Assembly: GCF_030286555.1 (NCBI RefSeq) | Contig: NZ_JASVWF010000008.1 | Span: 1-64,000 of the forward strand | Source: Actinomycetospora termitidis | GTDB lineage: Bacteria; Actinomycetota; Actinomycetes; Mycobacteriales; Pseudonocardiaceae | Length of the DNA: 64,000 bases | Direction: 5' to 3' | Shown here: in pieces, positions 7,481 through 61,980 of the stretch | How positions within the stretch are numbered: the stretch's first letter is position 1 | Layout: each line of letters opens with the position of its first letter | Notes under the pieces: generated by a model | Seen by the model: only the letters and a program-made list of their open reading frames with translations | What the model was told of the DNA's origin: nothing | Databases searched by the model: none | Made by a program: the position numbers and the translations under genes

Positions 7481-7735
7481 GGGTACCGCTTACGTCACAC
7501 CACGGCGGCCGACAGGTCTGCACAGGACAAGATCGCTCTTGCTCGATCATGTCGCTGAGCAGCACAGACGAACATGGTGGGCCATCACAGCCGACGTGAA
7601 TCCTGTTCACTGGGTTCGGGGTTCGAGTCCCTGACGGCGCACCCTTCGTTGCAGGTCAGCGGTTTACGTCACGGTTGGCGACGTGGTCGCTAGTCGCTCG
7701 AACGGCCGGAAACTCCTCGTGAGACTGGCGGTCGA
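7481..7735 (+). repeat. Dispersed repeat copy A with tRNA-like 3' end
   Basis: Starts with GGTACCGCTTACGTCACAC, continues through CAAGATCGCT and GCTGAGCAGCACAGA, and ends at 7643 with a tRNA-like tail: stem CGGGG, loop TTCGAGT, stem CCCTG (a perfect 5-bp T-arm with one G-T pair), then ACGGCGC and ACC as acceptor strand. No matching 5' tRNA half precedes it. A further 90 bases (to about 7735) are also shared with copy B at 19.95 kb. Same orientation as the other copies. Confidence 0.8.
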
Positions 7736-8175
7736 AGATCACCGTCGGCTGGGTGGCTGACTCCTAACAGGGTTTCGCTCGCAGGCAGGTCTTCTTTCAG
7801 CTTCGGTCGACCCAGCGTGGAGCCGGGCGGCTGCGGGCTCGATGAGAACGGCGCCTCCTGCTCGCCGTCGGCGGACAGCGGCGCCGCCGCCGCACGGGTG
7901 ACGAGGTCAACGAGACCCTGATGCTGACGCTCGACGGCCAGCGAATCCAGCCCCGTGCCGCGCAGGGAGGGCAGGCGGGCTCTCTCGGCTGCGATCATGG
8001 CTTGGCCGAAGCGCCGATAGGTGTCACGAGGCAGCTCCTCGCGTCCGGCGACGGGCGTTCGGCGGGGTTCGAGAAGGACCTCGGGCCGGAGTCGGCGGGT
8101 TCGGCTCGGGCCCTGGGATCGGCGGAGGTCGTCGCGGGTCGTCGGGCGGGCCGCCGTCGGTCGGTCTCATGACGG
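7736..8175. other. Gap of 440 bases with a possible short minus-strand ORF
   Basis: On the minus strand, 7998 to 7690 could encode 102 residues (MIAAERARLPSLRGTGLDSL and onward). The frame stays open upstream of the ATG (RRFGQAMIAAERA), as if this were the tail of a larger lost gene. No family is recognisable and there is no ribosome site, so I do not call it a gene. The sulfite oxidase frame runs through this region only because of its frameshift. Confidence 0.3.
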
Positions 8176-9293
8176 CTATGGGCCGTGAGCTCCGGCGGCG
8201 GTCGGCGTGGCGGTGACGGTGACGGAGGGCCAGGAGTTGTTGATGTAGCCCTTGGGGTTCCAGACGGTGGCGGGGTGTTCGGGCTGCACGGCCGCGGTGC
8301 TGTCCCAGGCACGCGCCGTGATCTCGACCCGTCCTGGCGGGACGTCGAAACGGGCGCGCCAGAAGCGCCAGTCCAGTGCGTGGGTTGAGCGTCGAGATCG
8401 GCCTGGACCCACGTGGCTCCACCGTTCGCGGTGACGTCGACGCGAACCACGGTGCGGTCGTCACCGGCGAAGGCGTACCCGGCCACGTGGGTCGCCCCGG
8501 CGGTCAGCTCGTCGCCGTCGTCAGGGGTGAGTATCTCGGAGTTGAGCGCGACCGGGCCCAGAGCGACTCCGTCGCCAGGGCGCGTGCGTGCGGTGTCGGT
8601 GTCGGCGGGCAGTACCCGGTAGGCGCCCTGCTGGAAGAAGTTCTCCGACGGGTGGTCCTGGGCAGTGATCCGCTGGACCCACTTGACGCTGCGGGCGCCG
8701 ATGTATCCGGGAACGACGACGCGGACGGGCCCACCGTGTGCGGTGGGAAGCGGCTCGCCGTTCATCTCCCAGGCGAGCAGGACCTCCGGGGCGGTGGCCT
8801 TGTCCACGGAGATCGATCCCCCGAAGGGCTGAGGCGGGTCGGCCTCCGGGGCGACGTCGGGAGCGTCGAACGCGACGTCCGTGACCTGCCCTCCGAGACC
8901 ACAGGCGGCCAGGACGTCGGACAGGCGAGCACCACGCCAGCGCGCCGTCGAGGTCGCCCCCGCTCCCCAGGGGTGCTGCCCGGGGATGTCGCGGTAGGCC
9001 ATCAGCCCGGCGCGACGGTTGCCGGCGCACTGCAGGGTGGCGGTCACTTCCACGGGGGTGAACCGTTGCTGGAGCTCGGGCAACGAGAACTCCAGAGCGT
9101 GCTCGACCAGCCCGCCGACACGCAGTCGCCATGCCTGCGGGTCGATCTCGGGCATGGTGCCGTGGTTGCGGCCGTAGAACACGTCCACCGGGGTGATCAG
9201 GTGCTCGGCGAGAGCGGCGCGGGGTGGCTCCGCGTTGTAGGGCTCCTGCTCGTGCACGATCATGTTTGCGCGTTTGGTCGGCGCACTCGCCAC
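8176..9293 (-). pseudogene. Sulfite oxidase (molybdopterin enzyme), one frameshift
   Basis: Sulfite oxidases convert sulfite to sulfate at a Mo-pterin centre. GTG at 9293 lies behind GAAGGGAGA. The Moco domain is present with the molybdenum-ligating Cys89 in VEVTATLQCAGNRR, followed by VVVPGYIGARSVKWVQRITA. The dimerisation domain starts normally (HVAGYAFAGDDRTVVRVDV), but near 8384 the frame breaks. The true C-terminus (HALDWRFWRARFDVPPGRVE, then VWNPKGYINNSWPSVTVTAT) is in another frame and ends at 8176. One base seems missing in a C-run. With it restored, the protein would have the normal length and a normal ending, so a sequencing error is as likely as inactivation. It is the last gene of the operon led by the formaldehyde-dehydrogenase-like gene. 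Confidence 0.8.
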
Positions 9294-9338
9294 CGACGTC
9301 TCCCTTCGTCGTGCCTCATCGATCGTCTTCGGACGTGC

Positions 9339-9773
9339 TCAGTCGCTGGTGTCCTTGTTCTGGTCGATGATCGTCTGGCGTTCGGGGGTGACCCAGAGGA
9401 TCACGCGCTCGGACTTGATGCCCTCGGGTGGGTAGTCGGTGCCCAGGTACTGGTGGGCGACCTCGTCGATGTGGGTGCGGGCCTCGTCGCCGGTGGTGGT
9501 CCGCTCGACCCGCCCGCGGATCTCGGCGTAGCGGTAGGGGTCGGACTCGTCGCGGATCAGCACGGTGATCCGGGGATCGGACTGCAGGTTGCGGTAGCGC
9601 TTGCGGTGGGTCTCGGTGTTGATCACCAGCTGCCCGTCCTTCAACGCCACCCACAGCATCTGGGTCTGCAGCCTGCCGCTCGGCAGCACCGTCGTGACCG
9701 CGGCGAAGTTCTTGCCGCTGGCGAGTTCCTCGGTGACCGGGTGCAGCTCGGGGCCGTTCTTCGTGTCCGCCAT
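9339..9773 (-). CDS. PPOX-class F420-dependent oxidoreductase, copy 1
   Basis: A 144-residue split-barrel flavin/F420-binding protein of the pyridoxamine-phosphate-oxidase-like superfamily. Visible features are LPSGRLQTQMLWVALKDGQL, RKRYRNLQSDPRITVLIRDE and YAEIRGRVERTTTGDEARTH. Such proteins use F420H2 to reduce quinones, biliverdin or xenobiotics in actinobacteria. I take ATG at 9773; the longer open frame upstream is the SnoaL gene in another frame. It sits 10 bases after the SnoaL-like gene and 45 before sulfite oxidase, inside one operon. It is nearly identical to the protein at 31376-31810, differing by eye at three residues. The natural substrate is unknown. Confidence 0.85.
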   Translation of the reverse strand: MADTKNGPELHPVTEELASGKNFAAVTTVLPSGRLQTQMLWVALKDGQLVINTETHRKRYRNLQSDPRITVLIRDESDPYRYAEIRGRVERTTTGDEARTHIDEVAHQYLGTDYPPEGIKSERVILWVTPERQTIIDQNKDTSD

Positions 9774-9783
9774 GGCTACCGCC

Positions 9784-10194
9784 TCACGCCTGGATCTGGG
9801 ACAGGAGGGTCGCCATGTCGGTGGCTCCCCACCGCTCGACGATCTGACCGTTCTCGAAACGGCCGAGCTGCAGACCGCGGACCTCGATACGTCGACCGGT
9901 CGCGGCGACGCCCTCGAACTCTCCCTGATGGGTCCCGGTGAGGGTGTAGGCGAACGCGACCGAGTCGTCGTCGGCCACCATCCGCTCCGGGGTGATCGTG
10001 AAGTCGGGGAATGCGGAAACCAGGTAGTGGAAGAACCGGCGGTACCCCTCGCGACCCTGCTCCTGGATCGGGGCCGGATCGTGGTCGACGGCATCCGGGG
10101 CGAACATGATGTCCACCCCGGCGTCGACGTCCCCGGCGTTGAGGCGCTCAGCGGCCTTTTCCTGCGTGGCGATGTTGTCGTCGCGGCTGCTCAC
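9784..10194 (-). CDS. SnoaL-like / ester cyclase family protein
   Basis: A 136-residue NTF2-like fold protein. Typical SnoaL features are NIATQEKAAERLNAGDVDAG, MFAPDAVDHDPAP, GYRRFFHYLVSAFPDFTITP and the final IVERWGATDMATLLSQI. Family members include polyketide cyclases and many small hydrolases or isomerases of unknown substrate. The start is GTG at 10194 behind AGGAG. It lies between the sigma factor gene and the F420-type PPOX gene on the same strand, so it belongs to the same transcription unit. A specific reaction cannot be assigned. Confidence 0.8.
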   Translation of the reverse strand: MSSRDDNIATQEKAAERLNAGDVDAGVDIMFAPDAVDHDPAPIQEQGREGYRRFFHYLVSAFPDFTITPERMVADDDSVAFAYTLTGTHQGEFEGVAATGRRIEVRGLQLGRFENGQIVERWGATDMATLLSQIQA

Positions 10195-10287
10195 GGGCTG
10201 CTCCTGAGGTCTGGGTGGATCGGGCTGGCGGCGGTGCCGCCTTCGACAGCCGGCTCGCGCTCCTCGGAGAGCCGGGGGCGCGTGGCG

Positions 10288-11094
10288 TCAGCTGGCGACG
10301 AGGTCCATCAGGCTGTGCTCGGGGTCGGCCGCGACCTGGCGTCTCGCCTCCTCCTGCAACTGCATGAGGGTCCGGCTCAGGAGGCGCGAGACGTGCATCT
10401 GGGAGATGCAGAGGGCCGGGCCGATCTCGGCCTGGGTCTTCTCGTGGACGAAGCGCAGCGCGAGGATCGTGCGTTCGCGCTCGGGTAGGGCCCGGACCAG
10501 GTCCCGGGTCAGCGCGCCGATCTCGACCCGCCCCATGTCGGCGTCCTCGGACCCGAGGACATCGGTGAGGGCGTCGCCGACGTCCGGGACCGCGTCCAGG
10601 GACGAGGGTCGCAGGGCGCCACCCGCGGTGAGCGCCTCGCTCACCCGGTCCCGGGGGAGACCGAGGTGCTCGGCCAGCTCCACCATGGTCGGGGCCCGAC
10701 CCAGGTCCTGGGACAGGATCGTGACGCCCTTGCCGACCGCGAGGTAGTCGTCCTTCACACCACGGGGCGTGCGCACCGACCAGGTCCGGTCGCGAAAGTG
10801 TCGCCGGACCTCGCCCATGATCGTGGGGACGGCGAAGGACAGGAAGTCCCGGCCGCGGTGGGGGTCGAACCGCTCGAGAGCGGCGAGGAGCCCGATGGCG
10901 GCGACCTGCTCGAGGTCGTCCACCGGCTCACCCCGACCCCAGAACCGGCGGGCGATGTTCCGGGCCACCGGCAGGTACCCCACCACTAGGCGCTCGCGCA
11001 GCCTTGTGCGGCCGGGATCGTCCGTGTCCATCCGGGCGTAGTCCACGAGCAGCGGCGCGTAGCGCGCGTACATCGTGTCGTTCTCGGCCCGCAC
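10288..11094 (-). CDS. RNA polymerase sigma factor, SigF/SigB type (stress response)
   Basis: A 268-residue sigma-70 group 3 factor. Region 2 is clear (VDDLEQVAAIGLLAALERFD, RGRDFLSFAVPTIMGEVRRH, FRDRTWSVRTPRG). Region 3 follows (LAEHLGLPRDRVSEAL), and region 4 ends the protein (LPERERTILALRFVHEKTQA, HVSRLLSRTLMQLQ). These are the signatures of actinobacterial SigF/SigB stress sigma factors. The start is GTG at 11094 with GAGAGGA upstream. It lies 37 bases after the formaldehyde-dehydrogenase-like gene and is probably co-transcribed with it. No anti-sigma or anti-anti-sigma gene lies next to it, unusual for this class, so control may be transcriptional or by a distant partner. Confidence 0.9.
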   Translation of the reverse strand: MRAENDTMYARYAPLLVDYARMDTDDPGRTRLRERLVVGYLPVARNIARRFWGRGEPVDDLEQVAAIGLLAALERFDPHRGRDFLSFAVPTIMGEVRRHFRDRTWSVRTPRGVKDDYLAVGKGVTILSQDLGRAPTMVELAEHLGLPRDRVSEALTAGGALRPSSLDAVPDVGDALTDVLGSEDADMGRVEIGALTRDLVRALPERERTILALRFVHEKTQAEIGPALCISQMHVSRLLSRTLMQLQEEARRQVAADPEHSLMDLVAS

Positions 11095-11131
11095 TGTTGG
11101 TCCTCTCGATGTTTCGGTCTCCGTGCGGAGG

Positions 11132-12271
11132 TCAGGCGGCGGGCTTGAGCAGGACCTTGGTCCATCCCTCGAGGCGGTCGTCGAAGTTGCGGTACGCCTC
11201 GGGCGCCTCGGCCAGCGACAGCTCGTGGCTGACGATGAACGACGGCGCGGCCTTGCCCCGGTGGATCAGCTGGGCGAGCTGACGGTTGTAGTTCTTGACG
11301 TTGGCCTGCCCGTTGCCGATGCCCTGACCCTTGAACCACGTGGTGCCGTAGTTGATCGGGTAGCGCCCGGACTGGGCGTCGGAATCCTTCCCGCCCGGGT
11401 CGCCGGGCAGGAACAGCCCGACCACGCCGATCTTGCCGGTGGGCCGCACGGCCTGGAACAGCGAGTTCAGCGTCATCGACGGGTCCTCGTTGCCCTGGGC
11501 GTCGTGGGCCTGGTAGCCGACGCACTCGCAGCCGCGGTCGGCGCCTCTGCCGTCGGTCTGGTCGAGGACCTGCTGGGCGGGGTCATCGGCCGAGTCGTCG
11601 ATCGGCGTCGCTCCGGCCCGCTCGGCGAGCGTGAGCCGGTCGGGGTGGCGGTCGACGACGAACACCTGGCTCGCGCCGCGGATCACCGCGGAGTAGGCGG
11701 CCATGATCCCGACCGGGCCGCCGCCGTAGACCACGACGGACTCGCCCGGGCGCATTCCGGCGAGCTCGGTGGCGTGCCAGCCGGTCGGGAAGATGTCCGA
11801 GAGCATCGTGTAGTCGTTCTGCTTGTCCCGGGCGTCTTCGGGCAGGACGAGGCAGTTGAAGTCGGCGTAGGGCACGCGCAGCAGTTCGGCCTGGCCACCT
11901 GCGTAGGGGCCCATGCCGTAGAAGCCGTAGGCGCCGCCGGCGGTGCCGGGGTTGACCGTGAGGCAGAAGCCGGTGTTGCCGCGCTCGCAGTTCTCGCAGA
12001 ACCCGCAGCCGATGTTGAACGGCAGGCTGACCTGGTCGCCGACCTTGACGCGGTCGACGCCGGAGCCGACCTCGACGACCTCGCCCATGTTCTCGTGACC
12101 GAGGATCTTCCCGGCCTCGAGCCCGGTGCGGCCCTCGTACATGTGCAGGTCCGACCCGCAGATGTTCGTGGTCGTGATGCGCACCAGGACATCGGTCGGC
12201 TTCTCAACCATCGCGTCCGGCACGTTCTTCACCGACACCGACTTCGGGCCCTCGTAAACCAGCGCCTTCAC
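11132..12271 (-). CDS. Zinc-dependent alcohol dehydrogenase, glutathione-independent formaldehyde dehydrogenase type
   Basis: A 379-residue medium-chain dehydrogenase. Catalytic zinc ligands lie in TTTNICGSDLHMYEGR and KILGHENMGEVVEV; the structural zinc loop is CGFCENCERGNTGFC; the NAD fold is VVVYGGGPVGIMAAYSAV; and the long insert YGFYGMGPYAGGQAELLRVP is typical of FdhA-type formaldehyde dismutase/dehydrogenase. It would oxidise formaldehyde or related aldehydes with bound NAD, without thiol cofactor. GTG at 12271 follows GGAGG. Its promoter carries the shared inverted-repeat operator (12354-12418). The sigma factor, SnoaL, PPOX and sulfite oxidase genes follow on the same strand, suggesting a five-gene electrophile-response operon. 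Confidence 0.88.
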   Translation of the reverse strand: MKALVYEGPKSVSVKNVPDAMVEKPTDVLVRITTTNICGSDLHMYEGRTGLEAGKILGHENMGEVVEVGSGVDRVKVGDQVSLPFNIGCGFCENCERGNTGFCLTVNPGTAGGAYGFYGMGPYAGGQAELLRVPYADFNCLVLPEDARDKQNDYTMLSDIFPTGWHATELAGMRPGESVVVYGGGPVGIMAAYSAVIRGASQVFVVDRHPDRLTLAERAGATPIDDSADDPAQQVLDQTDGRGADRGCECVGYQAHDAQGNEDPSMTLNSLFQAVRPTGKIGVVGLFLPGDPGGKDSDAQSGRYPINYGTTWFKGQGIGNGQANVKNYNRQLAQLIHRGKAAPSFIVSHELSLAEAPEAYRNFDDRLEGWTKVLLKPAA

Positions 12272-12353
12272 AGCAGGTCCTCCACACCTCGAGAGTCGAT
12301 ACGCCCGCCCACACCCCGGTGCGACGGCGGAGGGGCAGCGCAGAACCCTCCCG

Positions 12354-12418
12354 ACGGTAGGAGGCGTCCCGGCGTCCACCGAGCCGTTCTCGGCTCCGCC
12401 GGGAGCCGGAATCGGCAC
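12354..12418 (-). promoter_or_regulatory. Shared operator/promoter, copy 1 (formaldehyde dehydrogenase operon)
   Basis: Read on the minus strand: half-site GTGCCGATTCCG, a 14-base spacer, then the inverse half-site GAGAACGGCTC; 20 bases later comes CTACCGT with TACCGT as a TAnnnT -10 hexamer (12354-12359). This is the 38-bp version of the motif also found at 16207, 18206 and 18302. The -10 lies about 83 bases before the start codon. Confidence 0.75.
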
Positions 12419-12554
12419 GTCCCCACGGGTCCACGGGGCCGCTCGCGAGAGAGCCTTGTCGGTGATCGGCCACCAGGGTGGCGGTCGACCCGACCGATAC
12501 CGCGAGTTCCTGGCGCGGCTGCGTGACGCGGTGCTCGTGCTGATCGCGGCCGGG

Positions 12555-13559
12555 TCAGCTCTCGACGGTGAGTACCACCTTGCCGACCATGTGCCCGGCC
12601 TCCACCAGCTCGTGCGCCTGCCGCAGGGTGGTGGCGTCGAGGGGGCCGAGCTCGCGGGTGAGGGTGGTACGCACCGTGCCGGCGTCGACGAGAACGGCCA
12701 CGGTCTCGAGGAGGTCGTGCTGCGCGACCATGTCGTCGGTGCCGTAGAGCGGCCTCGTGAACATGAGCTCCCAGTGGAACGTGATGCTCTTGTTCTTCAG
12801 CGGCAGCAGTTCCAGCCCCTGGGGCCCGTCGATCGCGCAGATCGCGCCTCCCGGGCGCAGCATCCGCTCGTAGGTCTCGATCATCCCGCCCGTCCGCGAG
12901 GAGAAGATGAGGTCGACACCGTCGGGCGCGACGGCGGCGACGGCCTCGCCGAGGTCGCCGGAGTGGTCGACGACGTGGTGGGCGCCGAGGTCGCGCGCCC
13001 AGCGCTGCGACTCCTCGCGCGACGCGGTCCCGATCACGGTGAGCCCCGTCAGCGCGCGGGCGAGCTGGATGACCATCGAGCCGGCGCCGCCGGCCGCACC
13101 GACCACGACGAGCGTGCCGGTGGAGTCGGTGCCGACGCCGAAGCGGTCGACGAGGGTCTCCCAGGCCACGATGGTGGTGAGCGGGAGCGCGGCCGCCTCG
13201 GCGAAGGACAGGGTGCGCGGCTTGAGCCCGACGATCCGCTCGTCGACCACGTGGACCTGGGCGTCGGTCCCCGCGCGGGCGGTCGAGCCGGAGTAGTAGA
13301 CCTCGTCGCCCGGGACGAACAGCTCGACCTCCGCGCCGACGCCCGTGACGACCCCCGCCGCGTCGTAACCCAGGACGTGGGCCTCGCCCTCGGGGTCGTT
13401 CCCCCCGCGGAGCTCGATGTCGACCGGGTTGACCGACACGGCCCGGACGGAGACGACGAGGTCCTTCGGGCCGGGCGCGGGAACGGGTAGCTCGACGTCC
13501 TCGAAGACCTCCGCACCTCCGGGACGACGGTGGGCCACGGCACGCATCGTTGGGGTCAT
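12555..13559 (-). CDS. NADPH:quinone reductase / zinc-type alcohol dehydrogenase-like protein
   Basis: A 334-residue medium-chain reductase starting MTPTMRAVAHRRPGGAEVFE. It has the GroES-like N-terminus (VSVNPVDIELRGG, VLGYDAAGVVTGVG), the nucleotide site TLVVVGAAGGAGSMVIQLAR and the tail VEAGHMVGKVVLTVES. It lacks the structural zinc cysteine loop, as expected of quinone oxidoreductases. It reduces quinones or enones with NADPH. It belongs to the electrophile island but has no copy of the shared operator directly upstream; the start is taken at 13559, just after the remnant locus on the same strand. Confidence 0.85.
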   Translation of the reverse strand: MTPTMRAVAHRRPGGAEVFEDVELPVPAPGPKDLVVSVRAVSVNPVDIELRGGNDPEGEAHVLGYDAAGVVTGVGAEVELFVPGDEVYYSGSTARAGTDAQVHVVDERIVGLKPRTLSFAEAAALPLTTIVAWETLVDRFGVGTDSTGTLVVVGAAGGAGSMVIQLARALTGLTVIGTASREESQRWARDLGAHHVVDHSGDLGEAVAAVAPDGVDLIFSSRTGGMIETYERMLRPGGAICAIDGPQGLELLPLKNKSITFHWELMFTRPLYGTDDMVAQHDLLETVAVLVDAGTVRTTLTRELGPLDATTLRQAHELVEAGHMVGKVVLTVES

Positions 13560-13626
13560 CCGCCCATCGTCGACTCTCAGTGAAAGCTTGGCCCCGCTGG
13601 TCAGTCCCGCCACTCGCGCCGACCGC

Positions 13627-14422
13627 TCACCCGATGAACTCGTCCACGGTCAGCGGCAGTGACCGCACGCGCCGACCCGTGGCGTGGTGTGCGGCGTTGG
13701 CGATGGCTGCGGCCGACCCGACGATCCCGATCTCGCCGATGCCCTTGGTGCCCATCGGGTTGACGTGGGGGTCCTGCTCGTCGATCCAGTCGATCTCCAT
13801 GGTGTTGACGTCGGCGTTGGAGACGATGTGGTAGTTCGCCAGGTCACGGTTGACGACGTGGCCGGTGCGCGGGTCGAGCACGCTCTGCTCGTGAAGGGCC
13901 ATCGACAGACCCATCGTCATGCCCCCAGGAACTGCGACCGCCCCAACGTCGGATTGACGATGCGTCCTGCCGCGAACACGCCGAGCATCCGTGGCACTCG
14001 GATTTCGCCGGTATCGGCGTGGACCGCGATCTCGGCGAAATGCGCTCCGTACGCCGACATCGCGTACTGGTCGCCGTAGGGGTTGTCGGGCATGGCCCCG
14101 TCGGCCTCGGCGCCGTCCTCGGGGTCGGAGCCCCACTTGTCGCGGAAGCGGTCGGCGGCGTCGGCGATGGTCGCGCCCCACGAGCCGGTGCCCGAGGACC
14201 CACCGGCCAGTGACGCGGTCGGTAGCGCCGTGTCGAGAGACACGCCAGAGTGCGCCGACCGTCGAGCAGGACCGTGCACGAACCGCACTGGCCGTGATCT
14301 CAACCCTTCTTGACGCTCGTGACGTCGAGGTGTTCGCGGAGGGCGTCGAGCACAGTGGTCCGGGTATCGATCGTCAGCGACCGCTACCGACCGTCCACGC
14401 TCAGCGTGATGGAAGCGTCCAT
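13627..14422 (-). pseudogene. Deletion-fused remnant of a xanthine-dehydrogenase-type locus (2Fe-2S subunit + Mo subunit)
   Basis: Reading down the minus strand from ATG 14422, the first 60 codons are the N-terminus of a 2Fe-2S subunit: MDASITLSVDGR, a TAG stop (14384-14386), then TTVLDALREHLDVTSVKKG. TGA (14300-14302) replaces the first cluster Cys codon, followed by DHGQCGSCTVLLDGRRTLAC. At about 14235 this changes directly into the last third of the molybdopterin subunit (DTALPTASLAGGSSGTGSWG onward). A frameshift at a G-run near 13918 separates FAAGRIVNPTLGRSQFL from MTMGLSMALHEQSVLDPRTG, and the normal end is LPLTVDEFIG. The rest of the Fe-S subunit, the whole FAD subunit and the N-terminal Mo domains are gone. 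Two stops plus the deletion make this a true pseudogene. Confidence 0.85.
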
Positions 14423-14674
14423 GATTCTGGTTACCCACTCTCTGTCTACGGCTAGATGCACACCCCGACCCGCACCACGACCCGCACGACCGCCTCAGCG
14501 GTAGGCGAGGGGATCGAGGTCGCAGAGACCCGAGTCAGTGGGTTCCGCGCGTCGGCAGTGACGGTGACCGGATGAGGCCGTCAAGCGGTCGCGGCTCGGT
14601 GGGGACCGAGCGGGTGTCCGGCGGCTTCGGCAGGCAGCCGGGTGGCCAGGCCACCCGGCGCCGTGGTGGGTCGG

Positions 14675-14983: not shown

Positions 14984-15087
14984 GATCGATCTCTCTCCTC
15001 AAGGACGTTGTTCGTCAGGTGCGGTCGCGGCGACGGCGGTGAACCCGTCCGCCAGGCGGAACTTCGCGAGGTAGCGTCGTCCTGAGG

Positions 15088-15107
15088 CCGACCTGTTGGA
15101 AGGTCGG
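15088..15107 (-). terminator. Hairpin after the GlcG-like gene
   Basis: CCGACCT, a 6-base loop and AGGTCGG form a perfect 7-bp stem just past the stop codon of the gene at 15119. No U-tract follows, as is usual for GC-rich actinobacterial terminators. Confidence 0.5.
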
Positions 15108-21147: not shown

Positions 21148-21148
21148 C

Positions 21149-54340: not shown

Positions 54341-55207
54341 TCAGCTCTCCGCGACGAAGCTGCTGACCAGTCGGTTGAACTCGGCGGCGTGTTCGATCTG
54401 GGCCCAGTGCCCGCAGCGGTTGAACAGGACCAGCCGCGCATCGGGAATCATCGAGAGCAGCCGCAGCGAGTGTTCGTGGTGCACGACGCGGTCGTCACGG
54501 CCGTGGACGAGCATCGTCGGGGCGGTGATGCCCCGGACCTCCGCGGGGTCCACCGGCCGGGACACCGCACCGCCGGTGGGCAGCCCCTCGAGGAAGTTCT
54601 CGAGGTGGTCGGGCCGGGCCGACGCCGCTTCCGCACGCATCGCGGCCAGTTCCTCGGTGGCGAACTCCGGGGCGAAGGTCATGATCTGGACGAGCCGCAT
54701 CATGGTGGCGGGGGTCGGGTTGCGGTACCCCTCGATGAGGATCTTGAGGCCCTCGGAGGGACCGTCCCCCGGCCCGAACAGCGGGGGGACGTCGGGGAAG
54801 CTGCCGCTGCCCATGGTGATCAGGTGGGAGACGCGGTCGGGGTAGCGCGCGGCGACGGCGACGGCGACCATGCCGCCCATCGAGTTGCCGACCAGCGCTG
54901 CCTTCTCGATGCCCAGTTCGTCGAGCAGTTCGATGACGGCGGCCGGGTGGTCGTACTCGGCGGAGGGCGCTGCGTCCGACTGGCCCCACCCTGGGGCGTC
55001 CCAGGCGATGACGCGGAACCTCTCGGCGAGCGCCGGGATGTTGAGGTGGTAGTTGCTCCAGCCGGTCGCGCCGGGGCCGCTGCCGTGCAGCAGCAGTACC
55101 GGGTGGCCGCTGCCGGCCTCGTTGTAGCGCAGCCGCCAGGACTTCGTCTGCGCGAACCGGATCGTGTCCGCCTCGGTCGGGGCGTGCGTGGCGGTCGGCG
55201 TGCTCAT
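54341..55207 (-). CDS. Alpha/beta hydrolase (MhpC-like), second copy
   Basis: A 288-residue hydrolase. It has HPVLLLHGSGPGATGWSNYH with the GSGPG oxyanion signature of meta-cleavage hydrolases, nucleophile ALVGNSMGGMVAVAVAARYP (Ser about 117), LVHGRDDRVVHHEHS and the His in FNRCGHWAQIEHAAEFNRLV. It is similar in plan to the protein at 50875 but not close in sequence, and it pairs with the MhpB protein 40 bases upstream. It closes the LysR-controlled module. Confidence 0.92.
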   Translation of the reverse strand: MSTPTATHAPTEADTIRFAQTKSWRLRYNEAGSGHPVLLLHGSGPGATGWSNYHLNIPALAERFRVIAWDAPGWGQSDAAPSAEYDHPAAVIELLDELGIEKAALVGNSMGGMVAVAVAARYPDRVSHLITMGSGSFPDVPPLFGPGDGPSEGLKILIEGYRNPTPATMMRLVQIMTFAPEFATEELAAMRAEAASARPDHLENFLEGLPTGGAVSRPVDPAEVRGITAPTMLVHGRDDRVVHHEHSLRLLSMIPDARLVLFNRCGHWAQIEHAAEFNRLVSSFVAES

Positions 55208-55247
55208 GGTTCTCCCGGGGTCGTGGGGTGGGCGTCGGGTTGGTCGG

Positions 55248-56186
55248 TCAGCGGGGGACCGCCGTGGTCAGTGCGAAGCCCGCGATCCACTCGGGGATGG
55301 CCCGGTAGAACCGGGAGCGCATCTCGTACGGGCCGTGCACGGCGAGGGCGGCGTACGCGGCGATCCAGGTGCGGACCTCGTGGGAGGAGTGCCCGGCCTG
55401 CTCGACGCACCACTGGTTGCTCCAGCCGTCGATCTCGCCGAGACGTTGCTCGGCGAGCAGGTCGAGGAACTGGTCGTCCCAGTCAGGGTTGAGGGGGGCG
55501 ATGGTGGCGGTGCCGGCCGCGAGGTCGAGTCCGGTCTGGCGGACGCGGCGTTCGCGCGCGGCCCGTTCCTGGGTGGTGGGGTTGCGCCCGGCGATCAACC
55601 GTTCGGCGACCTCGGGCGCGGCGCCCTGCAGCTCGGGTACCGGCGGGTCGTGGGACAGCCCTCCGGAGGCGACGAGCAGGACCCGCTCGTCGAGTTGGTC
55701 GAGGTAGGTGCCGATGGCGCTGCCGAGGCGGCGGGCGCGGGCGGCAGGCCCGATCGGGGTCGCGACCGCGTTGATGAACACCGGGATCGTCGGGACCGCG
55801 GCGATGGAGCCGAAGAGCAGCCCGAGGGGCTGGGCGCAGCCGTGATCGACGTGCATGCGCTCAGAGATCGCAACGTCGATCTCGGCGTCCAGGACGTGCT
55901 GGGCGAGGGCGCGGGAGGTATCGGCGGGAACGTCGAGCGGTCCGGCTTCGGTGCCGTAGTCGCCCACGGCCTGGGCGGCCTGCCCGATGCAGAACGGCGG
56001 CATCATGTCGTAGAAGACCCCGTTGTAGTGGTCGGGAGTGAAGACCACGACGAGGTCGGGTGCGCTGGAGGCGACGAACGCCCGCGCCTGCTCGAACTCT
56101 CGGTCGACGGCGGCGCGCACGTCGGGAGCCGGGTCGTTGACGGTCATCAACGGCGAGTGCGAGGTGCCGACCAGGCCGATCAACAT
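55248..56186 (-). CDS. mhpB: 2,3-dihydroxyphenylpropionate 1,2-dioxygenase, MhpB (class III extradiol)
   Basis: A 312-residue LigB-type dioxygenase from ATG 56186 behind GAGAGGA. It has LIGLVGTSHSPLMTVNDPAP with the first His ligand, VVVFTPDHYNGVFYDMMPPF with a catalytic His, HVDHGCAQPLGLLFGSIAAV and VASGGLSHDPPVPELQGAAP. The spacing and motifs match MhpB of the 3-phenylpropionate pathway, which cleaves the catechol ring meta to the side chain. It lies in the same direction as, but 151 bases after, the ABC ATPase gene, with the hydrolase gene after it. Confidence 0.92.
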   Translation of the reverse strand: MLIGLVGTSHSPLMTVNDPAPDVRAAVDREFEQARAFVASSAPDLVVVFTPDHYNGVFYDMMPPFCIGQAAQAVGDYGTEAGPLDVPADTSRALAQHVLDAEIDVAISERMHVDHGCAQPLGLLFGSIAAVPTIPVFINAVATPIGPAARARRLGSAIGTYLDQLDERVLLVASGGLSHDPPVPELQGAAPEVAERLIAGRNPTTQERAARERRVRQTGLDLAAGTATIAPLNPDWDDQFLDLLAEQRLGEIDGWSNQWCVEQAGHSSHEVRTWIAAYAALAVHGPYEMRSRFYRAIPEWIAGFALTTAVPR

Positions 56187-56337
56187 GGCTGTTCCTCTCG
56201 GGCACGGCGGTGCGGGCGACGCCGGGGCGCGCGACGACACCGCACGCTCCCGGAGCGACCAGGACGGGAAGGTTGTTCTCCAGGGCTCTGGCGGGCGGCG
56301 GCGTTGTGGTCGCATGCCGCCCGCCGAGCACCGGCGG

Positions 56338-57120
56338 TCAGACTGTGGGGTGCAGGCGGCGCCAGATCGATCGTTCGACCTCGGCCAGCTCCGGGCTGTG
56401 CTGGAAGGCGACCGTACGCGGGCGTGGTTCGTCGATCTCGACGATCTGGCGCACCGTGCCGGGGTGCGCGGACATGATCGCGACGCGGTCGGCCATGAAC
56501 ACCGCCTCGCGGATGTCGTGGGTGACCAGGACCGCGGTGGTGCCGAGGTTCTCCAGGATCGCGCAGATGTCGACCTGCAGACGCTCCCGGGTCAGGGCGT
56601 CGAGCGCGCTGAAGGGTTCGTCGAGCAGCAGGACGTCGGGTCGGACGGCCAGCGCGCGGGCCACGTTGACCCGCTGCTGCATGCCGCCGGAGATCTGGTT
56701 GGGCAGGTAGTCGGCGTAGGGAGAGAGCCCGGTGAGCTCGAGCAGTTCGTCGACGGCGCGGTCGCGGGCGACCTTGGAGCCGTGGACGTCGCGGCCGGCC
56801 TTGAGCGAGATACCGAAGGCGACGTTCTTGCGCACCGAGAACCAGGGCAGCAGTGAGGAGCGCTGGAAGACGTAGGACAGCCTCGGCGCGGCACCGGTGG
56901 TGCTGGGGAGTTCGACGGTTCCGCTGGTGGCGGTCTCGAGACCCTGGATGATGCGCAGCAGGGTGGTCTTCCCGCAGCCCGAGGGGCCGACGACGGCGAG
57001 GAACTCCCCGCGCGCGAGCTGCAGTGACACGTCCTGCAGGACCGCGGGACGGTCGGTGGCGCCGAAGGTCTTGTCGACCCCGTTGATGACCAGGGCGTTC
57101 TCGATGGCGGTGCTGGTCAT
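56338..57120 (-). CDS. ABC transporter ATP-binding protein (nitrate/sulfonate/taurine type)
   Basis: A 260-residue ATPase. It has Walker A LAVVGPSGCGKTTLLRIIQG, the Q-loop RLSYVFQRSSLLPWFSVRKN, signature PNQISGGMQQRVNVARALAV, Walker B DVLLLDEPFSALDALTRERL and the switch His in VLVTHDIREAVFMADR. It is coupled to the permease gene by an ATGA overlap. It powers import of an organic acid or sulfonate in this aromatic module. Confidence 0.95.
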   Translation of the reverse strand: MTSTAIENALVINGVDKTFGATDRPAVLQDVSLQLARGEFLAVVGPSGCGKTTLLRIIQGLETATSGTVELPSTTGAAPRLSYVFQRSSLLPWFSVRKNVAFGISLKAGRDVHGSKVARDRAVDELLELTGLSPYADYLPNQISGGMQQRVNVARALAVRPDVLLLDEPFSALDALTRERLQVDICAILENLGTTAVLVTHDIREAVFMADRVAIMSAHPGTVRQIVEIDEPRPRTVAFQHSPELAEVERSIWRRLHPTV

Positions 57121-57941
57121 TTCATCCCCCGGTGGGCGCGGTGCTCGAAGAACTCGATGACGCCGGTCAGGACGATGCCGAGGAAGGCGAGCAGGACGGT
57201 GACGGCGAAGATGTTCGGGGTGTCGAAGGACTGCGCGGACTGCTGCAGGTTCAGGCCGAGCCCGGAGGACGCCCCGAACAGGTCGGCGACGACGACGCCG
57301 ATCAGGCCGCGGCCCACGGCCAGGCGCAGCCCGGTCAGGATGAAGGGCAGGGCGCCGGGGAAGAGCACCTTGGTGAAGGTCTCGAACCGCGAGGCCTGGT
57401 AGACGACCGCGAGTTCGCGGTAGTCGGTGCTGACTGCCCGCGCCCCGGCCACGGTGTTGATCAGGATCGGGAAGATGACCAGGGCGATGACCACCGCGAC
57501 CTTGGACTGCAGCCCGAACCCGAAGATGATGATCATCAGAGGGGCGAGGCCGATGATCGGGGTCGCGTAGAGGGCGTTGACCCACGGGTTGGTCCAGCGG
57601 TAGAGGATGGTGCTGGCCCCGATGGCCAGCCCGAGGGCGATGGCGACGACCGCGGCGAGGACGTAGCCGATCGCGAAGCCTTGCATGCTCACGATCAGGT
57701 CCGGCCAGATGCTGCCGGTCCGGAACAGCTCCCACAGGGTGGCCGCGATGGTGCTCGGTGCCACGATGACCAGCGGGTTCGGTTCGAAGACGCGGACGAG
57801 CAGTTCCCAGAGCAGCAGACCCGCGACGATGGAGATGACGCCGTAGGGCGTGCGCAGGGCGGCGCGGCGAGCCGGTGAGGTCCGGCGGGTTCGGGTGGGC
57901 ACGTCGGTGACCGTGCCGGGTTCGCTCATCGTGGTGGTCAC
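57117..57941 (-). CDS. ABC transporter permease (SsuC/TauC-like)
   Basis: A 274-residue inner-membrane protein with six predicted helices: VISIVAGLLLWELLVRVF, SMQGFAIGYVLAAVVAIALG, PIIGLAPLMIIIFGFGLQSK, VVIALVIFPILINTVAGARA, GLIGVVVADLFGAS, and FAVTVLLAFLGIVLTGVIEF. The EAA-type loop is FETFTKVLFPGALPFILTGL. GTG at 57941 overlaps the SBP stop (GTGA); ATG at 57929 is the alternative. Pairs with the ATPase and substrate-binding protein. Confidence 0.93.
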   Translation of the reverse strand: MTTTMSEPGTVTDVPTRTRRTSPARRAALRTPYGVISIVAGLLLWELLVRVFEPNPLVIVAPSTIAATLWELFRTGSIWPDLIVSMQGFAIGYVLAAVVAIALGLAIGASTILYRWTNPWVNALYATPIIGLAPLMIIIFGFGLQSKVAVVIALVIFPILINTVAGARAVSTDYRELAVVYQASRFETFTKVLFPGALPFILTGLRLAVGRGLIGVVVADLFGASSGLGLNLQQSAQSFDTPNIFAVTVLLAFLGIVLTGVIEFFEHRAHRGMK

Positions 57942-58990
57942 TGTGCGGTTCCTCCGGCCTTCTCGAGGTAGGAGTAGTCCATGTACTCGCCCTCGGTGAT
58001 GGGCTTGGACATGAGTCCGAGCTCGGTGTAGGCGCGCACCGTGGCGTCGAAGACGCCGGGAGCGTGGCGCAGGTCGGCTGGGAAGTAGGCGTTCTGGATC
58101 GCCGGGTTGTAGAAGTACTTCTCCAGCCCGGCCCGAACCGCTTCCGGGGTGGTGTCGCTGAGCTTGGCGATCATCGCGGTGGCCTGGTCGGCGTTCGCGG
58201 GGTTGCGGACGAAGTCGACCGCGCGCTTGATCGCGCGCAGGTAGCCGGCGGCGACGTCGGGGTTGGCCTGCGCCCAGGTGCGGGAGGCCTCGATGTCGGT
58301 GGTCATCAGCTGCGGGAGCGCGGCGCCGGGGGGCGCGAAGCCCAGGTCGTGGACCGCGCCGGAGGCGATGGGGATCTGCACTGGCGGGTAGGTCGCCAGG
58401 GTGGCGGCGGCCTGTCCGTTCTGGACGGCGGCGATGCGCTGCGGGGTCGCGCCGAGCGCGACGTAGGTCAGGTCCCTGGCGGGGTCGAGACCCGCGGAGC
58501 GGGCGAGCTGGTCGAACACCACGCGGGTGATGTCGTTGGTGCTGCCCAGCGCGATGGTCTTGCCGCGCAGCTGGTCCCAGGAGGTGATCTGGGGGTTCGA
58601 GGCGACGGTCCAGATCGAGGCGTCCATCTCGGCGGCCAGCCCGACGACCGCGGCGCCCTTGGACGCTGCGGCGACCCCGTCGGCGCCGATGTGGCTGATC
58701 TGCACCGCCCCGGACTGCATTCCGCTGATGGCGTCGGAGCCCTTGGTGACGTTGACGTAGTTCTTGACCTTGATGCCTTCCTGGGCGAAGTAGCCCAGTT
58801 CTTCGGCGAGGTGGGGGTAGAGCCCGGTGGTCATGCCGGCCTTGGACTGCTCGGCGACCACGATCTCGCGCGGGTCCCCGGACTGTCCGCCGCCGCAGGC
58901 GCTCAGGGTCAGCCCCACGGCGAGCAGCAGCGCCGCGGCCGCTGTGGATCGGGCGAGCCCGCGGCGGCGGGGTCGCGTCGTTGCGAACAT
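57938..58990 (-). CDS. ABC transporter substrate-binding lipoprotein
   Basis: A 350-residue secreted lipoprotein with the lipobox LTLSACGG (lipid Cys about 32). The mature part is an NMT1/THI5-type solute receptor: EIVVAEQSKAGMTTGLYPHL, FAQEGIKVKNYVNVTKGSDA, QLRGKTIALGSTNDITRVVF and FNTG-like clefts further on. I take the second ATG (58990) because AGGAGG then lies 6 bases upstream, while the first ATG directly abuts it. It likely brings the aromatic acid to the permease. It follows the flavin hydroxylase gene after 15 bases, so all are one operon. Confidence 0.93.
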   Translation of the reverse strand: MFATTRPRRRGLARSTAAAALLLAVGLTLSACGGGQSGDPREIVVAEQSKAGMTTGLYPHLAEELGYFAQEGIKVKNYVNVTKGSDAISGMQSGAVQISHIGADGVAAASKGAAVVGLAAEMDASIWTVASNPQITSWDQLRGKTIALGSTNDITRVVFDQLARSAGLDPARDLTYVALGATPQRIAAVQNGQAAATLATYPPVQIPIASGAVHDLGFAPPGAALPQLMTTDIEASRTWAQANPDVAAGYLRAIKRAVDFVRNPANADQATAMIAKLSDTTPEAVRAGLEKYFYNPAIQNAYFPADLRHAPGVFDATVRAYTELGLMSKPITEGEYMDYSYLEKAGGTAQ

Positions 58991-59005
58991 CGTCATCCTC
59001 CTGAG

Positions 59006-60715
59006 TCAAGCGGTCCGCAGTCGGGACTCGGGCGCCGTGCGGCGCCCGAGCAGGGAGTCCAGCAGGACCCCGGGGTCGGTCGGTGGGGTCGCGGAGCTCC
59101 AGGCGACGACGTGATCGGGGCGGACCAGAACGAAGCGGCGGTCACGGTAGGTCAGTTCGTCGACGGTCTCTTCGAGGTCGAGCCAGCTCAGCGGGACGCC
59201 GAGTTCGGCGGCTGCCGCGCGCAGCGGTTCGACGTCGGCGGCGGTCGCGCCGCGAGTGATCAGGGTGAAGTCGTCGCCGAGCTGGTCGTAGAGCGAGCTG
59301 CCGTCGGGACGCCAGTGGTGCGGGACGCGGGCGCCGGCGTCGACCGAGGGGCGGTACTGGTCGATGGCCGCGATGGCCGAGGTCTCGCCGTGCTCGTCGG
59401 AGGGGGCCTCGACGACCCCGGGCGAGCCGACGTAGCGGGCCCCGAACTGGACGCCCTGGCTGAACCACTGCTGGCGGTCGACCTGTTGGATCCTGGCGCC
59501 GACCTCGGCGCGCAACGCGTCGCCTCGGGGCCCCGGTTCGCGCAGCGCGGGGTCGCGTCCGACACCGCTCATGTCACCGTCGATCTTGAGGGCGGCGCGG
59601 CTGGTCGCCTCGCCCACCGAGCGTCGTTCGACCTCGTAGTCGTCGAGGACCCGGGTGCCGGCCCAGCCGCGAAGGACCGCGTGCAGCCGCCAGGACAGGG
59701 ACATCGCGTCGGCGATGCCGGTGTTCATGCCGAAGCCGCCCAGCGGCAGCCACAGATGGGCGGCGTCGCCGGCGAGCAGGACCCGACCGGAGTGGAAGCG
59801 GTCGGCGACCAGGCGCCGGGCGGTCCAGGGCACGACGCTCAGGGTCTCGATGTCGAACTGGCCGCCGAGGCTCTCGGCGAGGACCTGCTCGGTATCCACG
59901 GCGGCGGGGTCGGCGCCGTGCGGAACGCGGGCGTGGCACAGGAACAGCTCGCGGCCGTCGAGCACGACCACGCTTCCGCGGTAGGTGGGGCCGAACCACC
60001 AGTACATCCAGCCGGGCCGGGTCCCGAGGTGGGAGGCGAGGTCCGGGGAGCGGAAGTAGACCGAGTGCCGTCGCTCGCTCGCCTCGCTGTCGCCTTCGAG
60101 GCGGGCGCCGATGGATCGGCGGACCAGGCTCGCCCCGCCGTCGCAGCCGACGACGTAGGCCGCGGAGATGCGGTAGGTCTCGCCGGTGGCGACCTCGCGG
60201 ACCTCGACGGTGACCTCGTCCTGCCCGTCGTGGACCGCCTCGACGCGGTGTCCCCGCCGCAGTTCCGCGATCGTGGACTCCTGCAGCGCGCGGTCCAGGA
60301 TCGGCTCGAGGAATATCTGAGAGATGCGATGCTGGGGCTCCGGGGACGGCCACTCCGCCAGCTCGTGGGCGGTGCCGTCGAGAACCTCGCGGCTCGAGGA
60401 GAACGGGAAACGGGTCAGCTCCGGACCGGTCATGCTGGTGCAGTAGACGACGTCGGTCGCGTGGTCGGCGGGCAGACCGGCGCGGCGGATCTCCTCGGCG
60501 AGCCCCAGCCGGCGGAAGTACTCCATCGATCGCGCGTTCGTGGTGTTGCAGCGCGGGTTGGCGGTGGTTACCGGTGAGGCGTCGAGGACCACGACGGGGG
60601 TGCCGCGGCGGGCGAGGTCGAGCGCGAGGGTCATTCCGACCGGACCGGCCCCCACCACGACGACCCGCCCCTGAGTGGTGTCGGGCGACACGCCCTCCTG
60701 TGTGGTGCAGCTCAT
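59006..60715 (-). CDS. FAD-dependent aromatic monooxygenase (PheA/TfdB-MhpA superfamily)
   Basis: A 569-residue class A hydroxylase. It has VVVVGAGPVGMTLALDLARR, TNARSMEYFRRLGLAEEIRR, the DG motif AYVVGCDGGASLVRRSIGAR, GD motif RVLLAGDAAHLWLPLGGFGM, and a C-terminal thioredoxin-like domain (FTLITRGATAADVEPL onward, YRDRRFVLVRPDHVVAWSS). The extra C-terminal domain marks the phenol hydroxylase/resorcinol hydroxylase group. It opens the LysR-controlled operon: hydroxylase, transporter, MhpB and hydrolase, so it would convert the imported phenol-type substrate into the catechol cleaved by MhpB. Confidence 0.9.
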   Translation of the reverse strand: MSCTTQEGVSPDTTQGRVVVVGAGPVGMTLALDLARRGTPVVVLDASPVTTANPRCNTTNARSMEYFRRLGLAEEIRRAGLPADHATDVVYCTSMTGPELTRFPFSSSREVLDGTAHELAEWPSPEPQHRISQIFLEPILDRALQESTIAELRRGHRVEAVHDGQDEVTVEVREVATGETYRISAAYVVGCDGGASLVRRSIGARLEGDSEASERRHSVYFRSPDLASHLGTRPGWMYWWFGPTYRGSVVVLDGRELFLCHARVPHGADPAAVDTEQVLAESLGGQFDIETLSVVPWTARRLVADRFHSGRVLLAGDAAHLWLPLGGFGMNTGIADAMSLSWRLHAVLRGWAGTRVLDDYEVERRSVGEATSRAALKIDGDMSGVGRDPALREPGPRGDALRAEVGARIQQVDRQQWFSQGVQFGARYVGSPGVVEAPSDEHGETSAIAAIDQYRPSVDAGARVPHHWRPDGSSLYDQLGDDFTLITRGATAADVEPLRAAAAELGVPLSWLDLEETVDELTYRDRRFVLVRPDHVVAWSSATPPTDPGVLLDSLLGRRTAPESRLRTA

Positions 60716-60742
60716 GACGAGAACGCTAGAAAGCGATCTGCC

Positions 60743-60789
60743 ATAGGTCTATTTCATCTTCTCGCGCTCTCTCATAGCCTTGCAGCTAT
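60743..60789. promoter_or_regulatory. LysR-type operator between hydroxylase and LysR genes
   Basis: Two dyads: ATAG-GT-CTAT (60743-60752) and ATAGC-N6-GCTAT (60774-60789), the latter with the T-N11-A geometry of LysR recognition sites. Both share the ATAG/CTAT half-site and lie in the 97-base divergent region. Confidence 0.7.
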
Positions 60790-60812
60790 CAATTGGGGAC
60801 GAGGTGCACCAG

Positions 60813-61802
60813 ATGGCGAGGCTCGACCGGATGGACAGGTCGGCGGTGGCGGCCGCGGACGAGGGCGGCGAGCTGGACGGACTCGATGACAACTTCTCCC
60901 TGCAGAAACTGCACGTGCTGTGCGCGGTCGTGGCGCACGGCGGTGTCGGCAAGGCGGCTGCCGAGCTGTTCGTCTCCCAGCCCGTGGTGACTTCCCACGT
61001 CCGCTCGCTCGAGCGTCGGCTCGGGGCCCGTCTGTTCGAACGCGACGGACGCGGGATCACCTTGACCGAGGCCGGCGTGCACGTGCACCGCTGGGCACTG
61101 GAAGTGCTGCGTGGACGCCGCGAGCTGGCCCAGTCCCTGCATCAGATCGCGGCCGGGACCTGGGGCAGCGTCGCGGTCGCGGCGAGCATGTCCGCGGGCA
61201 ACAGCCTGCTCACGCCGGTCCTGATCGACTTCCGCCGCGACCATCCCGACGTCCGGGTCACCGCGACCAACTCCTCGGTGGAGGCGGCGCTGGAGATGAC
61301 CCAGAGCGGCCGCGCCGATTTCTGTGTGGTCGGCACCGACGCCGTGCTCGACTCCCGGGCCTATACCGCGACGAAGCTCGGCGAGCCCAGGTTCGTCCTC
61401 GTCGCCGCCGTCGGGGACACCTCAGTGGGCGCGTCGGTGACCGTCGGCGAGCTCTCCCAGCTGCCCTTCGTGACCCCGCCGGCGGGACTGGCGATCCGGC
61501 GCAGCCAGGACGCGGCGCTCGCCGAGCTCGGGGTGGTCGACCGGCGGGTCGAGCTCGAGCTCGGCAGCGCCGAGGCGATCAAGCAGGCGGTCGCCGCCGG
61601 TCTGGGTGTGGCCCTGCTCTGGTCGGTCTCGGTGCGCGCCGACATCGAGCGAGGGGACCTGCGCGAGGTCCGTGTGGAAGGCCCGCTGCGCCGGGACAGG
61701 CTCTATCTCGTCACGCGCGTCGGTAAGCGGCTCAGTCCGGTGCAGGCGCGGCTTCGGGAACGGATCCTCTCCGAGGTGCCCGAGCTTCTCCACGAGGGCT
61801 GA
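60813..61802 (+). CDS. LysR family transcriptional regulator
   Basis: A 329-residue LTTR from ATG 60813 (TTG 60780 is also open). The N-terminal HTH is LQKLHVLCAVVAHGGVGKAA, AELFVSQPVVTSHVRSLERR, LGARLFERDGRGITLTEAGV; the C-terminal effector domain has VTATNSSVEAALEMTQSGRA and FVTPPAGLAIRRSQDAALAE. An N-terminal acidic extension of about 25 residues precedes the HTH. It is divergent from the hydroxylase/transporter/MhpB operon and very likely its activator. Confidence 0.92.
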   Translation: MARLDRMDRSAVAAADEGGELDGLDDNFSLQKLHVLCAVVAHGGVGKAAAELFVSQPVVTSHVRSLERRLGARLFERDGRGITLTEAGVHVHRWALEVLRGRRELAQSLHQIAAGTWGSVAVAASMSAGNSLLTPVLIDFRRDHPDVRVTATNSSVEAALEMTQSGRADFCVVGTDAVLDSRAYTATKLGEPRFVLVAAVGDTSVGASVTVGELSQLPFVTPPAGLAIRRSQDAALAELGVVDRRVELELGSAEAIKQAVAAGLGVALLWSVSVRADIERGDLREVRVEGPLRRDRLYLVTRVGKRLSPVQARLRERILSEVPELLHEG

Positions 61803-61878
61803 AGCGACGTGACGGAATGTCATCGGCGGGCAGCACCCCGGCGACCGGGCCGGCGGGCGTCGCAACGGTGCCCGCTTC

Positions 61879-61980
61879 GGGTACCGCTCACGTCACGCCA
61901 GGGCCGACGCCGGACCGCCACAGGACGAGATCGCTACATCCGGAGTCGCTGAGCAGCACAGATGCTGATGGTGCGCCACC
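61879..61980 (+). repeat. Dispersed repeat copy E, 5' part only
   Basis: GGGTACCGCTCACGTCACGC, GACGAGATCGCTACATC and GTCGCTGAGCAGCACAGATG match the 5' two thirds of copies A, C and D. The tRNA-like 3' end is absent. It lies in a 350-base gap (61803-62152) between the LysR gene and the convergent TetR gene; I see nothing else in that gap. Confidence 0.7.

Follow-up and report, generated by a model that had tools for sequence, protein, structure and literature searches.

Tandem tRNA-Lys(CTT)-derived repeats bound integrase-less modules of a probable accretion island in Actinomycetospora termitidis

Islands lined up at a single RNA gene are known from several bacteria. In Dehalococcoides, ssrA islands stand in tandem on the downstream side of a single RNA gene, and direct repeats of the 3′ end of this gene delimit each of them; 16 carry an integration module and 15 do not, the latter having been suggested to be cis-mobilizable elements (PMC3146451). 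Additive flexible islands at tRNA genes have been reported from Alteromonas (PMC4119200), Ca. Actinomarinales (PMC7771536) and Methylophilaceae (PMC10872708), where it is the final 20 bp of tRNA-Lys(ctt) that are repeated. Cis-mobilizable elements (CIMEs) lack integration and transfer genes, carry attachment (att) sites and accrete in tandem (reviewed in PMC5704250). In Frankia, Fean5518 and Fean5534 are tandem integrative and conjugative elements (ICEs) at tRNA-Lys with closely related integrases, for which excision was seen (PMC3218068). Here we describe a 64,000-nt stretch of the Actinomycetospora termitidis genome (contig NZ_JASVWF010000008.1, positions 1 to 64,000, our contig C29; hereafter the window), in which five direct repeats delimit four gene modules, M1 to M4. 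Very probably the window belongs to an additive genomic island, assembled from integrase-less modules through tandem site-specific accretion at tRNA-Lys(CTT). A search of the literature on Actinomycetospora genomic islands found no title about this array.

In every core-bearing repeat copy of the window, a conserved non-tRNA stretch of about 145 bp precedes a core of tRNA sequence. We take the stretches before and after the core to be the P and P′ arms of an att site. The original prediction, made from the letters of the window alone, had placed the copies at five points in one orientation and read them as successive integrase att sites bracketing cassettes or, alternatively, as a new dispersed element. 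BLAST with positions 7381-7780 (copy A) as the query returned four further copies in the window, all on the query's strand: 43834-43998 (copy C, 85.5% identity, E 1e-50), 34694-34873 (copy B, 82%, E 6e-47), 19955-20074 (the 20-kb copy, 86%, E 6e-35) and 61858-61978 (copy E, 73%, E 8e-14). The predicted positions and orientation are therefore recovered. The 20-kb copy, described as weak in its 5′ part, is more diverged there, yet this part is present and matches a P-arm profile that we trained on 36 inner copies from the genus, window copies included (Table 1). Copy E, described as 5′-only, is a P arm without a recognisable core. All five copies are intergenic according to our own codon-usage gene caller and the Pfam hits.

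Throughout the genome (6.56 Mb, 30 contigs), the repeat has seven matches, five of them in the window; the other two are the end of an intact tRNA-Lys gene on contig C4 and a core-less piece on contig C11. This distribution rules out an element scattered over the genome, and a new dispersed element is not needed. The exact 21-base core occurs five times in the genome, four of them in the window, compared to 2e-5 expected by chance, so a chance origin of the core copies is excluded. The GC content of M1 to M4 is 70.6-71.9%, compared to 73.1-73.9% in the flanking sequence.

The T-arm and acceptor strand that had been noticed at the end of the copies belong to tRNA-Lys(CTT): the core is made up of the last 36 bases of this tRNA. 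The intact gene lies at C4:23987-24062 on the minus strand, and among the five core sites it is the sole complete tRNA. As predicted, no tRNA 5′ half precedes the copies; the P arm is non-tRNA sequence, ARAGORN found no tRNA in the window and Rfam gave no match there at the gathering score. The sequence that follows the intact gene also resembles what follows the copies. It is 74% identical over 285 bp to the sequence at the 7.6-kb copy, core included, and it also aligns at the 20.0-kb copy (Table 1); the roughly 90 downstream bases that these two copies had been seen to share are also present after the intact gene. The hairpins shared by the 34.8- and 44.0-kb copies resemble the terminator stem of tRNA-Lys, and the core plus flank of copy B matches the intact tRNA-Lys locus of a relative, G009, at 87% over 148 nt (genomes carry our own labels, G000 being A. 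termitidis itself). We infer that the start of contig C29 joins contig C4. The first called gene past the intact tRNA-Lys, pointing towards it, encodes a single-stranded DNA-binding protein (C4:23366-23836).

The same core, with up to 2 mismatches allowed, is present in 17 of 18 Actinomycetospora genomes at 53 sites, with 1 to 7 copies per genome and at least two in 13 genomes. We read 52 of these sites (one G008 site was left out), comprising 16 intact tRNA-Lys genes, from 16 of the 18 genomes, and 36 inner copies. In relatives such as G005 the intact tRNA and the array lie on one contig, and 11 of the 12 multi-copy contigs that we fetched carry all their copies on one strand, the exception being in G003. 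The 4-kb backbone upstream of tRNA-Lys has long shared stretches in 15 of the 16 loci (in G017 only up to 260 bp), and the sequences downstream of it mostly differ between genomes. Same-strand close pairs of the tRNA-Lys end are also seen in other genera of the family (e.g., G093, G124 and G273), and similar arrays may exist beyond the genus.

We next consider the extent of the arms. On the P side, the average identity between copies exceeds the background (0.34-0.41, a value raised by alignment, with related copies kept in) from about −160 onwards; on the P′ side, for copies that lack a head of the IntLys integrase described below, it does so as far as about +120. This analysis used all upstream sides but one (35 of 36) and 30 of the 52 downstream sides; those set aside downstream were 9 with an IntLys head, 2 with another integrase type, 9 of terminator type and 2 near contig ends. 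The arm borders are common whatever the cargo, which argues that, in the past or up to the present, the integrase-less modules have been mobile units, each equipped with complete att sites. The P-arm profile, run on 2.0 Mb of stretches around the sites, matches 29 of the 36 inner copies by construction, since these formed its training set; outside that set it found seven core-less matches at E below 1e-6, and one at E 0.002 was set aside. We do not propose a single P′ family, as a profile of class-b P′ arms gave no significant match to the P′ arms at IntLys heads.

In 7 of the 16 intact loci, the first gene downstream of tRNA-Lys encodes the integrase that we call IntLys (PF22022 and PF00589) and starts about 90 bp past the tRNA; one of these seven genes is broken, and broken IntLys genes are found in G008 and G011. 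A related integrase lies at tRNA-Lys of G003. Only 3 of the 36 inner copies adjoin an integrase or its remnant (two IntLys and one remnant, in G001). These adjacency counts use the first three called genes after each site, and some of the sites lie close to the end of a contig (at G013:C35:30298, 38 nt remain). We also examined genome records for 20 loci with IntLys relatives using ARAGORN. In ten of them tRNA-Lys(CTT) stands directly before the integrase: six Actinomycetospora, two Pseudonocardia species and two metagenome-assembled genomes (MAGs). The others are A. endophytica, at tRNA-Leu, one MAG at tRNA-Met, five more distant loci with different tRNAs on the far side and three without a tRNA. 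The A. termitidis genome itself has six PF00589 integrases, none on C4 or C29, and the IntLys profile has a single match in it at E<=1e-10, to a distant integrase that stands beside another tRNA on C28.

Several further observations concern these integrases. In G003, sites at C13:20551 and C13:36866 show an IntLys head with a poor P arm, in opposite orientation on the backbone side of tRNA-Lys; an inversion, a second insertion or a misassembly could each give this arrangement. The IntLys-headed first modules of the three genomes that we looked at (G004, G007 and G016) carry defence-type genes, namely a type I methyltransferase, a DinG-like helicase and a cyclase of the cyclic oligonucleotide-based antiphage signalling system (CBASS) type with a capP-like protein. 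P arms without an intact core occur on C11 of A. termitidis (L022, about 11476-11611) and in G005 (L096, 10308-10441); in both cases the sequence that comes next resembles the 3′ end of a different tyrosine recombinase gene. This second integrase family, beside the P-arm-like site in both genomes, was considered as a candidate for the cognate recombinase. BLASTP at E<=1e-3 finds no similarity between this family and IntLys, and no P arm was seen in the sequence after its copy on contig C3.

One insertion can be followed at its junctions. In G005, a single-contig genome, a 35.7-kb element with IntLys separates tRNA-Lys from a P-arm copy. The sequences of G005 and G009 agree exactly for 85 nt through the tRNA and core and then diverge, and the flank found directly after the core in G009 and G002 reappears in G005 past the P-arm copy 35.7 kb downstream. 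Two stems, the first of them that of the terminator, align at this junction, and beyond it there are matches of 91% over 291 and 632 nt. The arrangement in G005 corresponds to attL, an element whose left end carries IntLys, and attR, whereas G002 and G009 show a putative unoccupied-type junction. In an outgroup genus of the family, a strong hairpin likewise stands directly after tRNA-Lys (16 loci, L179-L194; the first 60 nt fold at −26.9 kcal/mol or lower), and the terminator flank is therefore likely the ancestral state. The presence of more than one terminator-type flank in a single genome suggests that chromosomal flank has been captured between att sites.

Modules differ between relatives, with some breakpoints at the sites. 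As there is one genome per species, this variability is between species. Comparing blocks of at least 1200 bp with more than 83% identity, we found several that exceed the backbone in similarity. M2, whose gene set we take to be furoate-type, matches G009 at 94.7% in a 3.67-kb block whose end lies 37 nt past core B and at 95.8% in another block of 7.5 kb, compared to 85.9% over 15 kb of backbone; beyond copy B the two genomes differ. G004 and G007 share 6.2 kb at 96.3% (backbone 85.6%) that starts inside the P arm of an att copy, as well as 16.3 kb at 92.0% within the first module. Around one site, 1.6 kb are 97.0% identical between G005 and G009 (backbone 88.2%), and one module of G005 and G014 is 94.0% identical over 5.8 kb (backbone 91.0%), although it holds the third place of the array in G005 and the first in G014. 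For M2 the search took in all 18 genomes and for M1 and M4 six relatives, while M3 was represented by its last 1.8 kb. The furoate-type gene block is present in 17 of the 18 genomes, partially in some; M1 genes are scattered in relatives; and M4 was not found as a block in the six relatives (G002, G005, G006, G009, G010 and G014), some of which have gene-sized pieces. For some modules, these comparisons support exchange bounded by att sites.

Taken together, these data lead us to propose that each repeat is an attR-type site, composed of an element-derived P arm and the 3′ end of tRNA-Lys. When an element comes in, an IntLys-family integrase would join its core to the 3′ end of the tRNA gene; this would restore the tRNA and leave a P-arm-plus-core scar at the far end, and repeated rounds would line up modules in one orientation. 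The recombination itself is what the junctions suggest; IntLys presumably acted on the integrase-less modules, either in cis or in trans, and the modules probably came from other strains.

Several observations weigh against this proposal. Seven of the 36 inner copies lack a P-arm profile match, the P′ arms of integrase-less copies show no significant similarity to the arms at IntLys heads (best E 0.012), and a profile search at E<=1e-10 found no close IntLys in the A. termitidis genome. The G002 and G009 junctions might be occupied by terminator-headed modules, as their contigs end 4.6 and 0.7 kb later. Similarity at the sites is also uneven: the next block shared by G005 and G014, at the last G005 site, is 88.9% identical, below the 91.0% of the backbone, and the surroundings of the 20-kb copy match G009 at 89.7% over 1.7 kb. 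G009 has M1 and M2 in pieces, which stand in a different order and on several contigs, and the furoate-type block has neighbours whose arrangement differs between G002 and G005 and most of which G014 does not share, so cargo also moves by other means. Finally, G014 has a decayed site beyond the sequence that in A. termitidis follows copy E, and the right end of the island may therefore lie further out than this copy.

Two other explanations concern the integrase-less modules. The inner modules may be the dead remains of integrase-bearing islands that lost their integrase after integration and ceased to move, a possibility to which we give somewhat less than an even chance. The rarity of integrases beside inner copies fits it, as do the broken IntLys genes of G008 and G011, the decayed sites such as copy E, G014:5.5 kb and C11:161 kb and the lack of a close IntLys in A. 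termitidis; however, it does not sit easily with arms that end at common borders irrespective of cargo, with integrase-less heads directly after tRNA-Lys in five genomes (G000, G001, G012, G014 and G017) or with the apparently recent exchange of some modules. A resident IntLys at tRNA-Lys, with this tRNA as its primary site, could capture and shuffle integrase-less metabolic cassettes in trans throughout the genus, in the manner of an integron, the sites being about 2 to 80 kb apart and the cassettes carrying an att-arm pair of ~290 bp with conserved borders. The position of IntLys at the tRNA while nearly all inner modules lack it, the conserved arms on those modules and the shift of the G005/G014 module from third to first place would agree with this. 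We nevertheless consider it unlikely: IntLys scores below every NCBIfam cut-off and does not match the integron integrase models, with no TIGR02249 match at E<=0.01 (the G003 tRNA-Lys integrase reaches a weak 32 bits, compared to a cut-off of 265), so that an IntI-type integrase is lacking; long arms and a tRNA core take the place of attC-type sites; several array-bearing genomes, A. termitidis included, have no close IntLys; and the G005/G014 pattern is also compatible with accretion plus loss.

Explanations that dispense with site-specific recombination fare worse. Direct repeats of ~85% identity could recombine, and an inverted 440-bp gene pair (96%) in the window shows that duplications occur here, yet it is very improbable that homologous recombination or gene conversion spread the cores. 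Such a process, already unlikely given the G005 insertion, leaves unexplained why the tRNA-derived part is near-exact next to variable arms, and also the tRNA-adjacent integrase and the clean tRNA junction. We give almost no credence to the repeat being a functional or degenerate RNA gene, such as a split tRNA or a tRNA-like regulator. It does contain a T-arm and acceptor strand; on the other hand, the part before the core is unrelated to tRNA, an intact tRNA-Lys with the same core exists besides in 16 of the 18 genomes, and the absence of any ARAGORN or Rfam match in the window led us to reject a split tRNA or structured RNA. A phage or plasmid origin by close similarity was likewise rejected: the P arm of copy C matched no phage or plasmid record, no IntLys relatives were found in viral contigs after a pattern prefilter, and the 125 phage records matching IntLys are all below 60%, the five listed being at 34-35%. 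Neither the P arm of copy C nor IntLys therefore showed, in these searches, a close phage relative of the kind expected for a prophage or phage satellite.

With respect to cargo, we assigned Pfam families to 42 window proteins, a subset of the called genes (Table 1). The families in M4 suggest aromatic-type catabolism. Among the 42 proteins there is no integrase or transfer gene (no relaxase-specific genome-wide search was made), and the genome-wide PF00589 search gave no match on C4 or C29; the own integrase and conjugation genes of an ICE or its actinomycete counterpart (AICE) were accordingly not found. M1, M2 and M3 are each bracketed by core-bearing copies, as in CIMEs, while the right site of M4 is decayed. 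The array has the features of an additive island: direct repeats of a tRNA 3′ end at module ends, an intact copy of that tRNA at one end, seen on the same contig in relatives such as G005, and modules that vary between species at a conserved place. A PNPOx-family gene is present twice, at 9334-9773 in M1 and 31376-31815 in M2, in inverted orientation and 96% identical over 440 bp, and G009 has a 97% match; this pair could drive an inversion.

Table 1. Repeat parts and modules of the window (positions in the 64,000-nt stretch).
Feature	Position	Strand	Evidence or content
P arm, copy A	7462..7604	+	P-arm profile E 1.5e-27 (copy in training set)
att core A, tRNA-Lys(CTT) 3′ end	7608..7643	+	exact 21-base core, alignment with intact gene
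P′ arm, copy A	7644..7770 (right edge approximate)	+	like sequence after intact tRNA-Lys
M1	7771..19828		Pfam: molybdopterin (sulfite-oxidase-type) oxidoreductase, PNPOx, sigma-70-type factor, two alcohol dehydrogenases, DJ-1/PfpI, AraC, TetR
P arm, 20-kb copy (diverged)	19829..19964	+	P-arm profile E 2.6e-18
att core, 20-kb copy	19968..20004	+	core search, alignment with intact tRNA-Lys
P′ arm, 20-kb copy	20005..20130 (right edge approximate)	+	106 bp including core, 85% to tRNA-Lys locus
M2	20131..34686		Pfam: old yellow enzyme, PadR, AMP ligase, molybdenum dehydrogenase subunits, enoyl-CoA hydratase, aldehyde dehydrogenase, glyoxalase, short-chain dehydrogenase/reductase
P arm, copy B	34687..34827	+	P-arm profile E 2.6e-26
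att core B	34832..34867	+	36/36 identity to tRNA-Lys 3′ end
Terminator-type hairpin after copy B	34875..34905	+	
M3	34906..43823		Pfam: NUDIX, luciferase-type monooxygenase, IclR, CoA-transferase III, thiolase
P arm, copy C	43824..43960	+	P-arm profile E 4.5e-25
att core C	43964..43999	+	one mismatch to tRNA-Lys 3′ end
Terminator-type hairpin after copy C	44007..44035	+	
M4	44036..61864		Pfam: FAA hydrolase, P450, BphC-like, LigB, FAD monooxygenases, ATP-binding cassette (ABC) importer, TetR, LysR
Decayed att copy E, P arm without recognisable core	61865..61982	+	P-arm profile E 1.9e-16

Accretion at tRNA-Lys explains why unrelated catabolic blocks stand side by side in this genome, and for a genus of actinobacteria that has been little studied it defines the landing site together with a candidate integrase. 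The P arm plus the tRNA-Lys core may be used as a marker for exchangeable modules. If integrase-less modules do move in trans, P-core-P′ would constitute a natural large-cargo integration system for actinobacteria.

The array resembles the Dehalococcoides islands in its tandem arrangement, 3′-end direct repeats and catabolic cargo; those islands, as described, involve a serine recombinase and the tmRNA gene, whereas here we find a tyrosine integrase, tRNA-Lys and long conserved arms in an actinobacterial genus (PMC3146451). Like the additive islands described at tRNA genes, it varies in content, between strains in the published accounts (PMC4119200, PMC7771536 and PMC10872708), and here a comparison across a genus defines the att arms, the integrase family and one insertion junction. 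It shares with CIMEs att-bearing tandem modules without integration or transfer genes, judged from sequence alone, and differs from the elements covered by that review in that no mobilising helper was found in the array of this genome (PMC5704250). Tandem integration at tRNA-Lys in actinobacteria is shared with Fean5518 and Fean5534; unlike those ICEs as reported, the window has no integrase or transfer gene among its 42 scanned proteins (PMC3218068). Since tandem and additive islands at RNA genes, CIMEs and ICEs at tRNA-Lys have already been described, the island is of a known kind, and what is new is its host, its integrase family and its arms.

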